Positions 255 to 7,739 of a stretch of DNA of 7,989 bases are shown here, piece after piece; position 1 is the first letter of the stretch, and every line of letters starts with the position of its first letter. This DNA comes from Halobacteriales archaeon QH_10_70_21 (lineage in GTDB: Archaea > Halobacteriota > Halobacteria > Halobacteriales > Haloarculaceae). The notes below the pieces were generated by a model. The model ran no database searches. It saw only the letters and a list, made by a program, of their open reading frames with translations, and had not been told where the DNA came from. The position numbers were made by a program, and so were the translations under genes. The stretch lies in assembly GCA_003021325.1 (NCBI GenBank), contig PXQM01000120.1, positions 1 through 7,989 of the forward strand, read 5' to 3'.

Positions 255-767
255 TCAGTACAGGTCGGTCACGAACGGCCCGAGCGCGCCGGCGACGGCC
301 GTCGAGAGCGCCGCCGTGCGGTCGACCCGCCCGCCGGTGAGCGCGCCGGACGCCCCTCGCCCCCGTGCGACGCCCGACTCGTCGAGGACGTCGTCCATCA
401 CGGGGCCGAGTTCCTCGCCGTCCCGCACCCGCCGGGCGACGTCCTCGGGCAGGCGGATGGCCGGGCCGGCGCCGCGCTCGAGGCGGTCGCCGTCGGTCGC
501 GGCGGCCCACATCACGAGGTACAGCCCCGGGGCGCCGTCGAACCCGGCGACGCCGCCCTCGATGCCGACCCCGAGGTCGTGGCCCGCGAGGGCGTTCTCG
601 GCGCGGGTCTCCGCACCGGCGACGGTCTCGGGGTGACCGGTCGGCTGCTCGCTGACCCCCGAGTCGACGGCGACGGCCTCGACGGTTGCGTCCGTGCCGG
701 TCCCCTCTAGCGCCGACGCCACGGCCCGCCGCTTGACCGGGTTTCCGCTTCCGACTCCGACGTGCAT
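255..767 (-). CDS. DUF84 family inosine/xanthosine triphosphatase (YjjX-like house-cleaning NTPase)
   Basis: Predicted 170-aa cytosolic enzyme of the DUF84/YjjX family, which hydrolyses non-canonical purine triphosphates (ITP, XTP) to keep deaminated purines out of nucleic acids. Visible motifs in order: N-terminal HVGVGSGNPVK (residues 2-12), the family's NTP-binding 'S/T-x-NP-x-K' signature; QPTGHPETVAGAETRAENAL (41-60), the conserved 'Q-P-x-x-x-x-E-T-x-x-G-A-x-x-R-A' block; DLGVGIEGGV (64-73); and a C-terminal G-x-LTGG-x-VDRT block (141-151) followed by GPF. Length matches the family. I chose the ATG at 765-767 because the GSGNPVK motif should lie at the extreme N-terminus; the reading frame stays open to a TTG at 827, but those 20 extra residues look non-homologous. 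It is divergent from the opsin gene and looks functionally unrelated to the retinal genes. Confidence 0.92.
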   Translation of the reverse strand: MHVGVGSGNPVKRRAVASALEGTGTDATVEAVAVDSGVSEQPTGHPETVAGAETRAENALAGHDLGVGIEGGVAGFDGAPGLYLVMWAAATDGDRLERGAGPAIRLPEDVARRVRDGEELGPVMDDVLDESGVARGRGASGALTGGRVDRTAALSTAVAGALGPFVTDLY

Positions 768-824
768 GCAGCCCGGTTCCACGCCGGACAGCAAGGGCGT
801 TGTGGAACGGGTATCCGCCTCCGG

Positions 825-831
825 CAAAATA
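825..831 (-). promoter_or_regulatory. Candidate TATA element for the DUF84 gene
   Basis: On the - strand the sequence reads TATTTTG here, the only A/T-rich stretch upstream of the DUF84 start at 767 apart from the opsin promoter itself. It is about 58 bp from the ATG, implying a leader of roughly 30 nt. Placement is inferred from A/T content only. Confidence 0.3.
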
Positions 832-846
832 CCCCAATCAGTTGGG
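831..846 (+). promoter_or_regulatory. Bop-type upstream activator sequence (putative Bat-responsive site)
   Basis: ACCCCAATCAGTTGGG contains a 5-bp inverted repeat, CCCAA (833-837) and TTGGG (842-846), around TCAG. From memory, the UAS of the Halobacterium salinarum bop promoter was defined by mutagenesis as roughly ACCnnactagTTnGG. This sequence keeps the outer CC...TT-n-GG framework, with ATCAG in place of ACTAG. It lies directly upstream of the TATA-like element of the opsin gene, as in H. salinarum, and a Bat homologue is encoded about 2.6 kb away. Similarity and position are seen; binding by Bat is inferred. Confidence 0.5.
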
Positions 847-848
847 TG

Positions 849-857
849 ATTAATTCA
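849..857 (+). promoter_or_regulatory. TATA-like element of the opsin promoter
   Basis: ATTAATTCA is the most A/T-rich stretch before the opsin start. Its centre is about 35 bp upstream of the ATG at 888. With the usual archaeal TATA-to-start distance of about 25-30 bp, transcription would begin near 878-885, giving an almost leaderless mRNA. That agrees with known bop transcripts and with the absence of a Shine-Dalgarno motif before 888. Confidence 0.5.
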
Positions 858-887
858 TTGTGGCAGGTGGTGTAGCTCCAGATACCC

Positions 888-1594
888 ATGCCGACACCTG
901 GAGCCGAACAGATCTGGCTGTGGCTCGGGGCGGTCGGCATGCTGGTGGGCACCCTGTACTTCCTTTCGGACGGCTGGGGCGTCGAGGACCGACGGCGGCG
1001 CGAGTTCTACGTCGTCGTCCTCTTCGCCACCGGCACCGCGTTCGTGAACTACCTGGCGATGGCGGTCGGGTTCGGCATCGCGACCGTCGAGTTGGGCGGT
1101 CGGCCGACCGCGATCTACTGGGCGCGGTACACCGACTGGATATTCACGACGCCGCTTCTGTTCATCGCGCTCGGGTTGCTCGCCGGAGCGACGCGAAACC
1201 AGCTCGCGTTGCTGGTCGGCCTCGACGGCCTGATGGTCGTTGCGGGCGTGCTCGCGACGCTCTCGACCGCGACCGGGCTCTACGCGCCCGCCGGGCAGCC
1301 GCTCGTGTGGTGGGTGGTCTCGTCGGCGTTCTTGCTCGGACTGCTGTACTACCTGTTCGGCCCGCGCTCCGGAACCTCGTCGCGGCCACGTGGCTCTGCT
1401 ACCCCGTCTGGTGGCTGGCCGGCACGAACGGGCTCGGCGTCACCGGCATCGTCGTCGAGACCGCCGGCTTCGTGGTGCTGGACCTCGTCGCGAAGCTCGC
1501 GTTCGGCTACGTCCTCCTGTCGAGCGACGAGGCCCTCGAGGACGCGGCGCAGGCGGCCGACGGCGCGGTCGGGCCGAAGCATCCGGCCGACTGA
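888..1594 (+). pseudogene. bop: Bacteriorhodopsin-family opsin, frameshifted with the E-F loop missing
   Basis: Seven-helix retinal protein of the haloarchaeal bacteriorhodopsin (BR) family, interrupted. From ATG 888 the frame encodes helices A-E: GTLYFLSDGWGV (21-32), helix C with YWARYTDW (77-84) and FTTPL, D113 (BR Asp115) and WW at 141-142 (BR Trp137/138), then LLYYLFGP ending at 1364. Helices F and G continue in another frame from about 1364: ALRNLV, WLCYPVWWLAG (BR Trp182, Tyr185, Pro186, Trp189), and ETAGFVVLDLVAK with BR Glu204, Asp212 and the retinal Schiff-base lysine 216, to a TGA at 1592-1594. About 18 loop residues that relatives carry between E and F are missing, so some 46-52 bp appear deleted, a 3n+1 loss that shifts the frame. 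Unshifted translation runs in the wrong frame to 1709 and lacks the retinal lysine. BR positions: Asp85 D, Thr89 T, Asp96 A, Glu194 N. Family certain; genuine lesion versus assembly error cannot be decided here. Confidence 0.88.
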
Positions 1595-1598
1595 CACC

Positions 1599-1709
1599 AT
1601 GAGGACGACCCGACTCGACATCGAGGCGGCGAACGAACGGTGCGGCGGCAGCCGCCGCTCCGTGCCGGCGGCCTGGGTCGCGACGACGGCCCGTGGTGGA
1701 CCGTGGTGA
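1599..1709 (+). CDS. Possible small basic protein between opsin and crtY (36 aa), doubtful
   Basis: An ATG 5 bp after the opsin stop opens 36 codons, ending in a TGA at 1707-1709. That stop overlaps the likely crtY start GTG (1706-1708) as GTGA, the pattern of translational coupling. The product is arginine-rich, begins MRTTRLDIEAANER, and has one cysteine. Third positions are about 86% G/C, but the overlapping crtY frame is equally G/C-rich here, so this does not discriminate. No Shine-Dalgarno precedes it and I recognise no family. It may simply be leader sequence that lets ribosomes reach crtY. Confidence 0.25.
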   Translation: MRTTRLDIEAANERCGGSRRSVPAAWVATTARGGPW

Positions 1710-2500
1710 GCGGCCCCTCCTACCTCCAGTTCCACGTCGCGTTCATCGTCCCCGCGCTGTCGATGCTGGCGGCGGCGGCGGTGGTGTCGCGGACCCGCAC
1801 CTCCCGCCGGACCGTCTGGTCGGTCGGCGCGCACAGCTACTGGGTCGGCGTCGCCGTCGTCACCCTGCTGGCGGTGGTCTACACGACGCCGTGGGACAAC
1901 TACCTCATCTCGCAGGGCGTCTGGGGCTACGGCGAGGGACAGACGCTCGTCCGGTTCGGGCTGGCGCCGCTCGGCGAGTACCTCTTTTTCGTGCTGCAGC
2001 CGATACTGACGGCGCTGTGGCTGGGCCAGCTGACCCTCCGGGACGGGTGGCCGACGCCGGAGCCGCTCGCCCGCGACGCAAACGGCGCCCGCATCGACTG
2101 GGCTGCGCTGTCGGTCGGCCCGCGGGTGGCTGGCGGCGCGGCCGCCGGCCTGCTCGGCGCCGCCGGTCTGGTGCTGGGCTCGACGACGTCGACCTTCTAC
2201 CTCGGCGCCATCCTGGCCTGGAGCGCTCCCGTGCTCTTCATCCAGTGGGTCGTCGGGCTCCCGCAGCTGCTCCACCAGCGCCGGGTCGTCGCGGTCGGCG
2301 TCGCCGTCCCCACGCTGTACCTGTGGGTGGTCGACCGGGTCGCCATCGCGACCGGCATCTGGCACATCTCCGCCGAGCACACCACCGGCCTGGACATCGT
2401 CGGCCTGCCCGTCGAGGAGGCGCTGTTCTTCGCGGTGACGAACCTCTTCGTCGTCCAGGGGCTGGTGCTGTTCCAGTGGGTGATGGACCGATGGGGGTGA
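1706..2500 (+). CDS. crtY: Lycopene beta-cyclase (fused CrtYc-CrtYd type)
   Basis: Membrane enzyme of 264 aa that cyclises both ends of lycopene to give beta-carotene, the precursor of retinal. It is the heterodimer-type cyclase fused into one chain, and the internal duplication is visible. The first half has PWDNYL (62-67), W73/Y75, R83 and PLGEYLFFVLQP (88-99). The second half has DRVAIATGIWHIS (210-222), TG (227-228) and GLPVEEALFFAVTN (233-246). Several hydrophobic segments cover the chain. I start it at GTG 1706 so the protein begins MSGPSYLQFHVAF, matching the family's N-terminus ('YLQFHxxF'); the frame is open from GTG 1640, but those 22 residues look unrelated, and GTG 1703 is equally possible. 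A weak GGTG-containing Shine-Dalgarno lies about 6 nt upstream. It follows the opsin and overlaps brp by 10 bp, indicating one operon devoted to chromophore supply. Confidence 0.93.
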   Translation: MSGPSYLQFHVAFIVPALSMLAAAAVVSRTRTSRRTVWSVGAHSYWVGVAVVTLLAVVYTTPWDNYLISQGVWGYGEGQTLVRFGLAPLGEYLFFVLQPILTALWLGQLTLRDGWPTPEPLARDANGARIDWAALSVGPRVAGGAAAGLLGAAGLVLGSTTSTFYLGAILAWSAPVLFIQWVVGLPQLLHQRRVVAVGVAVPTLYLWVVDRVAIATGIWHISAEHTTGLDIVGLPVEEALFFAVTNLFVVQGLVLFQWVMDRWG

Positions 2501-3516
2501 CCGTCGGCGGGCGCCCGCGGGCGGTCCTCGACCGGGTCGCGACCCGCCCCGCCTGGGTCGTCTGTGGCGGTCTCGTCGTCCTCTCGGCGCTGTCGGCGCT
2601 GGCCGGCGTCTCGCCCGGACCGACGCTCCGGTACCTCCCGCTGGCGGCCAGCGTCGTCGTTCTCGGGCTTCCGCACGGCGCGGTCGACTACCTCGTCCCC
2701 GCCCGCCTGGGCGACCGCCCGCTGCCGGAGTCGATGGCGCTCGTCGGCGCCGTCTACCTCGTCTTGGGCGGCGCCTACGCCGCGCTCTGGCTCGTCGCGC
2801 CGCTCCCCGCGGCCCTGTGTTTCATCGCCATCACCTGGTTCCACTGGGGGCAGGGCGACGTCCACGCGCTCGTCGCGTTCCTCGACGCCGAACACCTCCG
2901 GTCGCGGCCGCTGCGGGTCGCGACGCTGTTCGTCCGCGGCGGGCTTCCGATGTTCGTCCCGCTCGTCGCCTTCCCCGCCCGGTACCGCGAGGTTGTCGGG
3001 ACGTGGGTCGAGCTGTTCGGCGCGGAACTGGCCGTGGCGTGGCTGTTCGCGCCGGAGACCCGGCTCGTCGGCGGCGCCGCATTCCTCGCGGTCACGGTCG
3101 CGACGCTCGCGGCCGGCTACCGGGTCGCTGGCGCCGCGCGCGGCTGGCGGGTCGACGCCGGCGAGACGGCGCTGCTGTGGGTCGTCTTCCTCACCGTCCC
3201 GCCGCTCGTCGCGGTCGGGGTCTACTTCTGTGTCTGGCACTCGCTGCGGCACGTTCTCCGGGTGGCGTCGGCCGACGAGGCGGCGACGACGGTCCGGGAC
3301 GGGCTCCGGCAGTTCGCCCGCGAGGCCGCGCCGCTGACAGCGCTGGCGCTCGCCTTCCTCGTCGGGTTCGGCGCGCTCGTCCCGGCGTCACCGTCGACGC
3401 CGGCGGAGCTCGCGGGACTGTATCTCGTCTTCGTCGCGGTGCTGACGCTCCCGCACGTGGCCGTCGTGACGTGGATGGACCACCGAGAGGGCGTCTGGCG
3501 CCCTACCCGTGGGTGA
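2491..3516 (+). CDS. brp: Brp/Blh family beta-carotene 15,15'-dioxygenase
   Basis: Integral membrane enzyme of 341 aa that cleaves beta-carotene at the central 15,15' double bond to two molecules of all-trans retinal, the opsin chromophore. Brp/Blh proteins use a non-haem iron held by conserved histidines in membrane helices. Matching residues are H62 in GLPHGAVDYL, H118 in WFHWGQGD, and H250/H254 in WHSLRHVLR; H322 in LPHVAVVTWMD is a further family histidine. About eight hydrophobic segments are evident. The start is ATG 2491, inside the last codons of crtY (10-bp overlap); the reading frame is open upstream to 1693, but that part is a shadow of crtY. The 3' end overlaps the end of bat on the other strand by 14 bp. 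All iron ligands are present and length is normal, so it should be functional. Confidence 0.94.
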   Translation: MGVTVGGRPRAVLDRVATRPAWVVCGGLVVLSALSALAGVSPGPTLRYLPLAASVVVLGLPHGAVDYLVPARLGDRPLPESMALVGAVYLVLGGAYAALWLVAPLPAALCFIAITWFHWGQGDVHALVAFLDAEHLRSRPLRVATLFVRGGLPMFVPLVAFPARYREVVGTWVELFGAELAVAWLFAPETRLVGGAAFLAVTVATLAAGYRVAGAARGWRVDAGETALLWVVFLTVPPLVAVGVYFCVWHSLRHVLRVASADEAATTVRDGLRQFAREAAPLTALALAFLVGFGALVPASPSTPAELAGLYLVFVAVLTLPHVAVVTWMDHREGVWRPTRG

Positions 3517-5542
3517 CCGCCCGCTCGAAGAACGCCTCGGTCAGCTTCCGCTCGGCCGCCCGGAGGTGCTGGTGGTACGTCGAGCGGTCGATGCCCATCG
3601 ACTCGGCCAGCTCCTCGCCGGTGACCGACCGGTTCCACTCGTAGTAGCCGCTGACGTGGGCCTTCCGGAGCGCCGTCAGCTGGCGCTCGGTGAGCCGCTC
3701 CTCGAGGTCGGCGATGAAGCCGCGCTTGGTCTTCGGCGGCCGCTCGCGCTCCCGGTGAGCCGTTATCGTCGTCTCCGGGTACTGCTCCTGGATGAGCTCG
3801 ACGATGGCCCGGACGTCGTTCTCCTTCGGGAGCTCGACGGAGAGCTCGGCGACGCCGTCATCGACGGTTATCGACCGGAGCTTCACGCCGCGCTCGGCCA
3901 GCGTGGCCGTGATGGAGGCGTCGGTGATGTCGAACTCCCAGAGGGTGGCGTCGTCGTACTCGTGGATGGGGGTCGCCGCCTCGATGTCGGGGTAGCCGCC
4001 GGCGACCCCGCGGACGGCCTCGTCGTCGGCGTCCGTCGTGAAGAACATCAGCACCGAACCGTCGTCGCGGTAGACCGACCCCTGGAACTCGAGGTGGCTG
4101 CCGGTCTGCTTCGAGAGGTCGACGAAGAAGAGGTCGCTGTCCGTCGTCTCGAGGACGAGCTCGGTCACGCTGTCGGAGGCGAGTATCCGGCCGCGCTCGA
4201 GGGCGTTGATGGCGGTCCCGGCCGCCCGGCCGAGCGCCTCCAGCACCACCATCTCGTGGTCGTTCAGCGCCTCGCCGTCGGTCGTGTACAGCGTCAGCAC
4301 GCCGTAGGTCGTCTCGCCGTACGACAGCGGAATCGCGGCGATGCCGCTGAGCTCGTCGCCGTCCATCCCCGGCCACCCGGCGGCGGTGTCGGCGAGCGTC
4401 TCCGCGTCCGTACGGAGCTGTATCTCGCCGGTCTCGTAGGCGGCCACCGTCGGCCCGGAGCCGCCGCCGGAGATGTCGACCGCCAGCGCCTCCTCCGGCG
4501 GGGACCACTCGCCGGCCCAGGCGGTGGGGACGAGCGTCTCGACCGAGTAGTCCGGCGCGCCGACCCAGCCGAACTCGTAGGTGCCGTCGGCCGCGACCCG
4601 CTCGCAGACGGCCCGCTCGATCTCCGGCCGGGAGCCCGCCTGCACCAGCTCCCGGGTCACGTTCTGGAGGAGTCCCTCGATGCGGACGAGCAGGTGCTCC
4701 AGCTCCGTCCGCCGCTGTCTGGCCTCCATCTCGGCCTCCTTCCGGTTCGTGATGTCCATCTGGAAGCCGACGAAGTTCGTCACCTTGCCGTCGGCACCGT
4801 GGACCGGCGCGATGTCGACCCGGTTCCAGAACGGCTCGCCGTCGGCCCGGTAGTTCAGCAGCTCGACGGAGACCGGCTCGCCCTCGTCGACCGCCTCCCG
4901 CATCGCGTCGATGGCCTCCTGGTCGGACCCCTTCCCCTGCAGGAACCGACAGTTCCGGCCGACCGACTCCGCCTTCTCGTAGCCGGTCAGCCGCTCGAAG
5001 GCGTCGTTGATGTATATCATCGGATTGTCCGGCCGGTCGGGATCGGTGATGGTGATGCCGACTGGCGCCTCGTCGATGGCCCGCTGTTTCAGGCGGAGCT
5101 CCTCCCGAATGCCGACGTCGTCGATCGGCATCGGCACGGCGCCGCCGTCGCGCGCGGGCCGTCGCCTGCGGACGGCGCTCTCGACGCGGTCGACGAGCGT
5201 CGCCTCCGTCTCCGGGTCCGAGGCCGGGACGAACTCCGAGACGCCGGCCGAGATCGCCCGGCTGGCCACTCGCCCCTCGTCCGACCCCGCGAGCAGGACG
5301 ACCGGAAGCGACGGTCGCGACTCGCGGACGGCCCCGAGGAACGCCAGCCCGTCCGTGGTCTCGTCGTGCGTGACGACCACGCAGTCGACGTCCGCGCCGA
5401 CGCGGTGCGGCTCCGGGACGTCGTCCGGCGCTGCGACCGAGAGGCCGTCCCGCGCTTCGAGCGCGGCCCGCGCCGTTCGCCACCGAGGCGGCCGTTCGGT
5501 GACGAACAGCACGCGAGCCGCCGGACCCCCTGTGTCCTTCAT
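3503..5542 (-). CDS. bat: Bacterio-opsin activator Bat: pseudo-receiver, LOV/PAS, GAF and HTH_10 domains
   Basis: Cytosolic transcription regulator of 679 aa, close in size to H. salinarum Bat (about 674 aa by memory), which activates bop and retinal genes under low oxygen and light. Domains: residues 10-127 resemble a response-regulator receiver (DGLAFL, ISAGVSEFV), but the phospho-Asp position after CVVV is Thr58, so it is probably not phosphorylated; about 150-268 is a PAS domain of LOV type with GRNCRFLQG (Cys198), N230 (ELLNY), N240 (FWN) and Q261 (FVGFQ), the photoactive cysteine and FMN contacts of blue-light receptors; about 268-300 is a probable coiled coil; about 300-448 a GAF domain; about 455-600 the region typical of Bat-like proteins between GAF and HTH; 613-670 an HTH_10 domain (LTERQLTALRKAHVSGYYEW, then ELAESMGIDRSTYHQHLRAAERKL). 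It starts at ATG 5540-5542 with a TATA-like box about 33 bp upstream, and it ends tail to tail with brp. Its predicted target is the opsin promoter at 831-857. Confidence 0.93.
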   Translation of the reverse strand: MKDTGGPAARVLFVTERPPRWRTARAALEARDGLSVAAPDDVPEPHRVGADVDCVVVTHDETTDGLAFLGAVRESRPSLPVVLLAGSDEGRVASRAISAGVSEFVPASDPETEATLVDRVESAVRRRRPARDGGAVPMPIDDVGIREELRLKQRAIDEAPVGITITDPDRPDNPMIYINDAFERLTGYEKAESVGRNCRFLQGKGSDQEAIDAMREAVDEGEPVSVELLNYRADGEPFWNRVDIAPVHGADGKVTNFVGFQMDITNRKEAEMEARQRRTELEHLLVRIEGLLQNVTRELVQAGSRPEIERAVCERVAADGTYEFGWVGAPDYSVETLVPTAWAGEWSPPEEALAVDISGGGSGPTVAAYETGEIQLRTDAETLADTAAGWPGMDGDELSGIAAIPLSYGETTYGVLTLYTTDGEALNDHEMVVLEALGRAAGTAINALERGRILASDSVTELVLETTDSDLFFVDLSKQTGSHLEFQGSVYRDDGSVLMFFTTDADDEAVRGVAGGYPDIEAATPIHEYDDATLWEFDITDASITATLAERGVKLRSITVDDGVAELSVELPKENDVRAIVELIQEQYPETTITAHRERERPPKTKRGFIADLEERLTERQLTALRKAHVSGYYEWNRSVTGEELAESMGIDRSTYHQHLRAAERKLTEAFFERAVTHG

Positions 5543-5687: not shown

Positions 5688-7739
5688 ATGACCCGGACGA
5701 CAGCACTCTCGACGGTTCAGGTGGCCGCGTTCGTCGTCGTGGCCCTCGTCGCGGGCGGGCTCGGGGCGGTCGCGCTGGCGAACGTCAGCGGCGACCAGCC
5801 CGGCGCCAACGCGACCGACCAGCCCGGACCCCAGCCCGACAGCGCGCCCGCGGTGTCGACCTTCGACTCCGCCGAGGAGTTCCGCTCGTACCTCCGGAGA
5901 GCGGACCGCCCGAGCCGCGTCCGATGGACCGGCGGCCCGCGGACGACCAGCGGGGACGTCAGTGTCAGAAACGCGGAGGCCGGTGACGACGCCGCGATGG
6001 ATGAGCCCGCCGAGGTCGACCGCGCGGCGCAGACGCCGGCACCACAGCGGACCGCGGTCGAGGAAGCAGAGAGCGGGGCGCCCGGCGACGAGCGGCGCGC
6101 CTCCGACACCAACGTCCAGGTGGCGGGCATCGACGAACCCGACATCCTGAAGACGACGCCCCGGACGGTCTACTACTCGCCGCCGAACCCCCGCCATCGG
6201 GTCGTCCACGACACCGAGGACGGGCGGCGGTCCGACGCCGAGAACGGCGTCCGTCTCGTCAACACCAGCGACCCGGCCGCGCCGGAGGTGGCCAGCCGGC
6301 TGGACGTCTCCGGGCGGCTGCTCCTCGCCGGGGACACGCTGGTCGTCTTCCAGGAGGACCGGCTCCTGGGGTACGACGTCAGCGACCGCGACGACCCCGA
6401 ACGGGTCTGGACGAAGGAGCTGTCGGACCGCGTCGTCACCGCGCGCCTCCACGCCGGGACCGTCTACCTCGTGACGGCCAGCGGCGTCGACCGCGACGAG
6501 CCCTGCCCGGTCGAGCCGATGGAGGACGTCTCCGTCCCCTGTACGGAGATTCACCACCCCGAGGAGCCGACGCCGGTCGACGCCACCTACACCGTGACGC
6601 TCCTGGAGCCGACGGACGGTACCGTCCACGACTCGGCGTCGTTCGTCGGCGCGGGCGGCCGGTCTGTCGTCCACGTCTCGACCGACCGCGTCTACGTCAC
6701 CTACCCCCAGCAGGTCGACCGCGCGGACATGATGGCGCGGTTCCTGCTGGAGAACCAGTCCGACCGCCTCGACGGGGCGACGCTGGACCGGATCGAGGAG
6801 ATACGGAGCTACGACCTGGGACCGCGCGCAAAGCGCATCGAAATCGAGCGCGCCATCCAGTCGTGGCTGGCCGGCCTCGAGCCCGGGGAGCGCCGCGAGG
6901 CCGAGCGGAAGCTGCGCGAGGACATGCGGGCGTGGGCGGCCGACAACAAGCGCGGCTTCGAGCGCACCGGCATCGTCGCCTTCGACGTCGAGGGCGCCGA
7001 CGGCGACGACCCGACGGTCGCGGCCGGCGCGACCGGCTCCGTCCCCGGCAGCCCGCTCAACCAGTTCTCGATGGACGAACACGACGGCGAGTTCCGCATC
7101 GCGACGACCGTCTCCGGCGCCATGGGGACCGACAGCGAGAACGACCTCTACGTCCTCGACGAGTCGCTGTCGGTCACCGGGTCGGTGCAGGGGATGGGCA
7201 TCACCGAGCGCATCTACTCGGTCCGCTACGTCGGCGACGAGGCCTACGTCGTCACGTTCCGCCGCATCGACCCCTTCCACGTGGTCGACCTGTCGGACCC
7301 CACCGAGCCGACGGTGGAGGGCGAACTGAAGCTCCCCGGCTTCTCGTCGTACCTCCACCCCCTCTCCGGGGACCGCGTGCTCGGCATCGGCGAGGAGGAC
7401 GGCAGAGTGAAGCTGGTCGTCTTCGACGTCTCCAATCCCGGGGACCCGAAAATCGAGTCCCGGAAGCTACTCGACGCCCGGTGGTCGGCCGTCGCCGAGA
7501 GCCACCACGCGTTCCTCATGGACCGCCGCCACGGCGTCTTCTTCCTGCCGGCCGGCGAGGAGGCCTACGTCTTCGACTACACCGAGGGTCTCGAGGTCGA
7601 GACGACCGTCAAAACCGAGGGCCGCGTCCACCGGACCGCCTACGTCGGCGACTACCTCTACGTCTTCGGCGACTCGTCGGTGACCGTCGTCGACGAGCGG
7701 GACTGGGAGCGGACGAACGAGGTGGCGCTCGACGAGTAG
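5688..7739 (+). CDS. Secreted or anchored beta-propeller domain protein (PF09826-type)
   Basis: Protein of 683 aa of unknown function. Residues 1-9 are followed by a hydrophobic helix (about 10-32: VQVAAFVVVALVAGGLGAVAL), a signal peptide or membrane anchor; there is no lipobox and no twin-arginine motif. About 35-140 is an acidic, Pro/Gly/Ala-rich linker. TNVQVAGIDEPDILKT (141-156) is the hallmark entry motif of the 'secreted protein containing C-terminal beta-propeller' family, usually seen as NVQVxGVDExDIVKTD. Propeller-like strands with repeated V-x-D-V-S-D-P patterns follow (229-236 YDVSDRDD, 532-539 VVDLSDPT, 578-585 VFDVSNPG) up to about 670. A charged helical stretch (about 343-425) interrupts the blades. 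Cys273 and Cys285 could form a disulphide outside the cell. Start ATG 5688 was chosen because the signal segment follows directly. It is divergent from bat; nothing in it suggests a role in retinal metabolism. Confidence 0.82.
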   Translation: MTRTTALSTVQVAAFVVVALVAGGLGAVALANVSGDQPGANATDQPGPQPDSAPAVSTFDSAEEFRSYLRRADRPSRVRWTGGPRTTSGDVSVRNAEAGDDAAMDEPAEVDRAAQTPAPQRTAVEEAESGAPGDERRASDTNVQVAGIDEPDILKTTPRTVYYSPPNPRHRVVHDTEDGRRSDAENGVRLVNTSDPAAPEVASRLDVSGRLLLAGDTLVVFQEDRLLGYDVSDRDDPERVWTKELSDRVVTARLHAGTVYLVTASGVDRDEPCPVEPMEDVSVPCTEIHHPEEPTPVDATYTVTLLEPTDGTVHDSASFVGAGGRSVVHVSTDRVYVTYPQQVDRADMMARFLLENQSDRLDGATLDRIEEIRSYDLGPRAKRIEIERAIQSWLAGLEPGERREAERKLREDMRAWAADNKRGFERTGIVAFDVEGADGDDPTVAAGATGSVPGSPLNQFSMDEHDGEFRIATTVSGAMGTDSENDLYVLDESLSVTGSVQGMGITERIYSVRYVGDEAYVVTFRRIDPFHVVDLSDPTEPTVEGELKLPGFSSYLHPLSGDRVLGIGEEDGRVKLVVFDVSNPGDPKIESRKLLDARWSAVAESHHAFLMDRRHGVFFLPAGEEAYVFDYTEGLEVETTVKTEGRVHRTAYVGDYLYVFGDSSVTVVDERDWERTNEVALDE

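Follow-up and report, generated by a model that had tools for sequence, protein, structure and literature searches.

A 52-bp gap breaks a bacteriorhodopsin-type opsin gene in a haloarchaeal opsin cluster and may reflect a rare deletion allele

In the window (the whole stretch of 7,989 bases analysed here), a bacteriorhodopsin-type opsin gene is split between two reading frames by the absence of 52 bp; near-identical proteins are intact, and so are the neighbouring genes. We lean slightly toward a real, rare allele of the opsin over an artefact of the library or assembly. One recent deletion in this copy would have taken 17 codons and one base, a stretch that begins at the end of helix E and reaches the start of helix F. 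The lesion belongs to a common class, small deletions that disrupt a known gene; most likely this is either a rare broken copy of an ordinary sort or an artefact of sequencing.

The window holds a haloarchaeal opsin cluster composed of opsin, lycopene cyclase, Brp/Blh dioxygenase, and Bat-like activator (Table 1), with genes for retinal synthesis and a Bat-type regulator adjoining the opsin (1706-5542), as in bop-type clusters. The start codon of the cyclase is GTG at 1703 or 1706. The cyclase, dioxygenase, and activator, which had been described as intact in the initial annotation, all have open frames and family matches. The PAS domain of the Bat-like protein contains GRNCRFLQG, which resembles the flavin-binding motif of LOV domains, and the NCBIfam model YtvA_fam gave 161 bits against this protein, below its cut-off of 250. 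Judging by this domain, a blue-light input to opsin regulation through the Bat-like PAS is possible.

Table 1. Features of the window, with the branch to which its opsin belongs (positions in the window; the minus strand is given as -).
Feature	Position	Strand	Evidence
DUF84 NTPase-like gene	255-827	-	
Opsin 5′ part: helices A-E, 159 codons, frame of ATG 888	888..1364	+	PF01036 Bac_rhodopsin, profile positions 2-152, E 1.4e-36, 126.5 bits (cut-off 24.6); 158/159 residues identical to P0001
Deletion junction, 52 bp missing relative to 4/4 intact relatives	1362..1367	+	Breakpoint scan, alignment
Opsin 3′ part: helices F-G with retinal lysine, out of frame with 888	1364..1594	+	PF01036 Bac_rhodopsin, frame 1364, profile positions 168-219, E 2e-12, 47.5 bits (cut-off 24.6); 76/76 residues identical to P0001
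Actual ATG 888 frame: 273 aa, helices A-E plus non-opsin tail	888..1709	+	Stop overlaps cyclase start
Lycopene cyclase (CarR/CrtY type), intact	1706..2500	+	TIGR03462, 135 bits (cut-off 39.4)
Brp/Blh beta-carotene 15,15′-dioxygenase, intact	2491..3516	+	PF15461, E 1e-77; TIGR03753, 244 bits (cut-off 95.25)
Bat-like activator, intact	3503..5542	-	PAS, GAF, BAT, HTH_10 domains
Beta_propel protein	5688-7739		
Branch lacking Asp96 and Glu194, opsin beside cyclase	888-1594; also L001-L003, L014, P0001-P0009		

The frame of ATG 888 codes for helices A to E up to LLYYLFGP, with codon 159 ending at 1364, and the next opsin residues (ALRNLV...) begin at 1364 in a different frame that reaches its stop at 1592-1594. 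No single frame holds all seven helices, A-E lying in frame 888 and F-G in the other. A breakpoint scan against four intact DNA loci (L014, L001, L002, and L003) gave a gap of 52 bp (3 × 17 + 1) in all four comparisons. Alignment with intact orthologues, which the initial annotation had proposed as the way to locate the junction and any repeat at its edges, placed the breakpoint best after base 1364 or 1365 (against L014, positions up to 1367 score equally well); the homology between the junction and the lost stretch amounts to 1 bp, or at most 3 bp. What is missing is the E-F loop, along with the adjoining margins of both helices. When the two pieces of the window opsin were aligned with the best 120 of 401 protein matches and the four loci, giving 124 rows besides the window, the stretch from G158 to LRN measured 19 residues in 124/124 sequences. 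The window keeps two of these residues, with the frame broken, so the gap is not chance variation in loop length.

No N occurs anywhere in the window. The repeats found in 1280-1450 are a 14-nt pair at 1304/1405 and one inverted pair; none lies at the junction. There is thus no evident sign that the assembly collapsed at a long word occurring twice, and repeat-mediated deletion was rejected since these repeats are away from the break. DNA folding of three intact relatives, run without shuffle controls, gave no clear hairpin across the gap. The initial annotation had described an opsin broken by an out-of-frame deletion that loses the E-F loop, and the four DNA relatives together with the five protein representatives described below confirm this description. 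Its estimate of 46-52 bp, of the form 3n+1, narrows to 52 bp, and we agree with its exclusion of a single-base sequencing error, because 52 bases are absent.

Loci L001-L003, from Halobacteriales/Haloarculaceae MAGs, were found in genome contigs, and L014 (genome G123) was obtained by a family-wide DNA search of 146 genomes. Their DNA identity to the window was 86% over 461 bases for L014, 83% for L003, and 81% for L001 and L002. Like the window, these loci carry the same gene beside a cyclase (5/5 loci, the window included); unlike the window, they have an opsin that is intact in one frame (4/4). Five representatives of protein clusters (P0001-P0005), which by the listing comprise 16 sequences, are likewise intact, with 250-252 residues and 96-98% identity to the window, intactness being read from the representatives and not from each of the 16 members. 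The cluster of P0001 (98% identity) has 11 members, found on 11 contigs; those of P0002-P0005 (96-97%) have 2, 1, 1, and 1. In all five representatives, GP and the LRN segment are separated by LTARAEPLSAELRSTF(R/G). P0001, a protein of 252 aa listed as bacteriorhodopsin, differs from the window in having LTARAEPLSAELRSTFR between GP and ALRN, and 234/235 of the retained residues are identical, the sole difference being Thr146 in P0001 against Ser146 in the window. This serine (TCG, 1323-1325) is encoded about 40 bases upstream of the junction, at a position occupied by Thr in 123/124 aligned sequences.

Compared to L014, dN/dS was 0.215 for helices A-E, 0.35 for helices F-G, and 0.354 for the cyclase; the opsin appears to have been under ordinary constraint until very recently. 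The view that the remainder of the opsin is normally conserved holds, both in these ratios, which are like that of the cyclase, and in the match to P0001. The four intact loci and the five intact representatives likewise bear out the initial annotation in calling the lesion recent or artefactual. It had also looked to an intact version of the same strain, some 50 bases longer, as evidence against a lesion; intact proteins at 96-98% identity, possibly from other strains, supply such evidence in part. They leave the lesion in the present sequence as it is, and they speak against its being a fixed state of the species. A search of plasmids with window 800-3520 gave no near match, and 17 stretches of viral contigs matched the P0001 pattern, none of which encoded a relative.

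The product of ATG 888 consists of helices A-E followed by 114 residues in a non-opsin frame, and its TGA (1707-1709) overlaps the cyclase GTG start. The Schiff-base lysine of helix G, which we take to be the equivalent of bacteriorhodopsin Lys216, is present in 124/124 relatives and lies in the 3′ piece of the window gene, outside this product. By what is established for type I rhodopsins, the loss of helices F and G precludes formation of the pigment. Since helices F and G and the retinal lysine are out of frame, the window copy would be null, with no photoactive protein expected, and the 273-residue frame of this contig should not be annotated as bacteriorhodopsin. The shifted frame merges in frame with a short ORF (1599-1709) between opsin and cyclase. 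This ORF has 36 aa in the window, 48 in L014, 30 in L001 and L002, and 31 in L003; in all five loci it ends in GPW or RPW and its stop overlaps the cyclase start. Downstream of the more distant opsins L018-L033, no clear counterpart was seen by eye.

Further opsins were found in related genomes. G001-G003 carry another bacteriorhodopsin, with Asp96 and Glu194 (L004, L005, and L006), so loss of the paralogue seen in the window could be tolerated. A Bac_rhodopsin search of 50 relatives of G003 gave 91 matches in 37 of them, and among the matches inspected, signs of breakage were noted in G002 and G154. In G002 (MAG QS_8_69_73), a halorhodopsin gene (L012:1501-2100) has an out-of-frame gap of 118 bp (3n+1), as judged against one intact relative, L011; the gap starts where helix E ends, reaches into the F-G region, and shows 1 bp of homology. 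In G154 (G154:C12:165001-167655), an opsin match contains a single internal TGA and is followed, about 2 kb further on, by a C-terminal opsin fragment; this is possibly an interrupted gene. Broken opsins look like a minority among these 50 genomes.

That the cell's own gene is intact, and that the 52 bp were lost through amplification, a chimeric read, or contig joining, is an explanation to which we give considerable weight, somewhat short of an even chance. The deleted form with its tail was absent from the 120 matches listed of 401 for the window's 273-residue frame, every one of which covered at most 68% of that frame, and the five representatives of 16 sequences are intact. The rest of the gene equals P0001 at all but one of the 235 retained residues, and the unusual Ser146 is clustered with the junction, which fits an error as well as a mutation. 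The L012 gap, of similar form and homology and without an explanation of its own, raises suspicion of an artefact here as well, even as scored against its one intact relative. The single occurrence, the nearby serine, and the gap in a related MAG thus weaken the case for a real deletion. Against an artefact stand the sharp junction, with only 1-3 bp of homology, and the lack of N; joins made by an assembler normally depend on a long word common to both sequences. Together with a loss that could be tolerated, these features favour a real deletion, and its junction homology would fit end-joining or replication slippage, not recombination between repeats.

We consider it highly improbable that the altered gene is functional, be it as A-E alone, as A-E fused to the downstream frame, or through a ribosomal -1 shift that rejoins F-G. 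The shifted frame does remain open to 1709, where its stop overlaps the conserved cyclase start, so that translation of the cyclase could be coupled to it. Against this, the retinal lysine is out of frame, no standard slippery heptamer is seen by eye at the junction, and, again by eye, the 3′ part has no in-frame start before one inside helix G; moreover, the E-F stretch of 19 residues is invariant in 124/124 relatives and the altered form was unseen elsewhere among the 120 matches listed of 401. It seems scarcely credible, too, that this is a maintained allele, in which an A-E half without chromophore would be fused in frame to the short ORF whose end lies on the cyclase start; such a locus would no longer supply a pigment of its own and yet would go on translating the retinal-pathway genes that serve the other opsins. 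An old opsin pseudogene, fixed across the whole lineage, might be suggested by the broken frame and by the second bacteriorhodopsin in related genomes. We rejected it as extremely unlikely because near-identical sequences (P0001-P0005, 96-98%) are intact, and because the retained parts, matching P0001 so closely, hold no further frame change or stop.

As a single broken copy of a gene already known, the lesion is of small consequence. A real deletion would mean that an accessory opsin is being lost, as a segregating allele, from a haloarchaeal population in the wild whose genes for retinal synthesis stay intact.

The branch to which the intact opsin belongs may deserve more attention than the lesion. 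In bacteriorhodopsin numbering, the equivalents of Asp85 and Thr89 are present in the window and in 124/124 rows of the alignment. The equivalent of Asp96 is Asp in 111/124 rows and Ala in the window and P0001. Ala or Gly occupies this position in 13/124 rows, which are the closest relatives of the window in the set, and the same 13 rows have Asn, Gly, or Asp at the position of Glu194 (Asn in the window branch). The intact opsin belongs to a side branch of the bacteriorhodopsins that lacks the equivalents of Asp96 and Glu194, two sites at which its residues differ from those of pumps.

The solved structures closest to P0001 are 4pxk (E 2.9e-87), tabled as Bacteriorhodopsin and presumably Haloarcula marismortui bacteriorhodopsin I, and cruxrhodopsin-3 (4jr8; E 1e-85). 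Compared to both, the window branch has Ala at Asp96 and Asn at Glu194, and the window copy is broken. In Halobacterium, insertion elements give rise to spontaneous bop mutants. The window resembles these mutants in the loss of an opsin gene to what would be a spontaneous lesion, and differs from them in that no insertion element is present at the site, where the gene is instead interrupted by an apparent small deletion.
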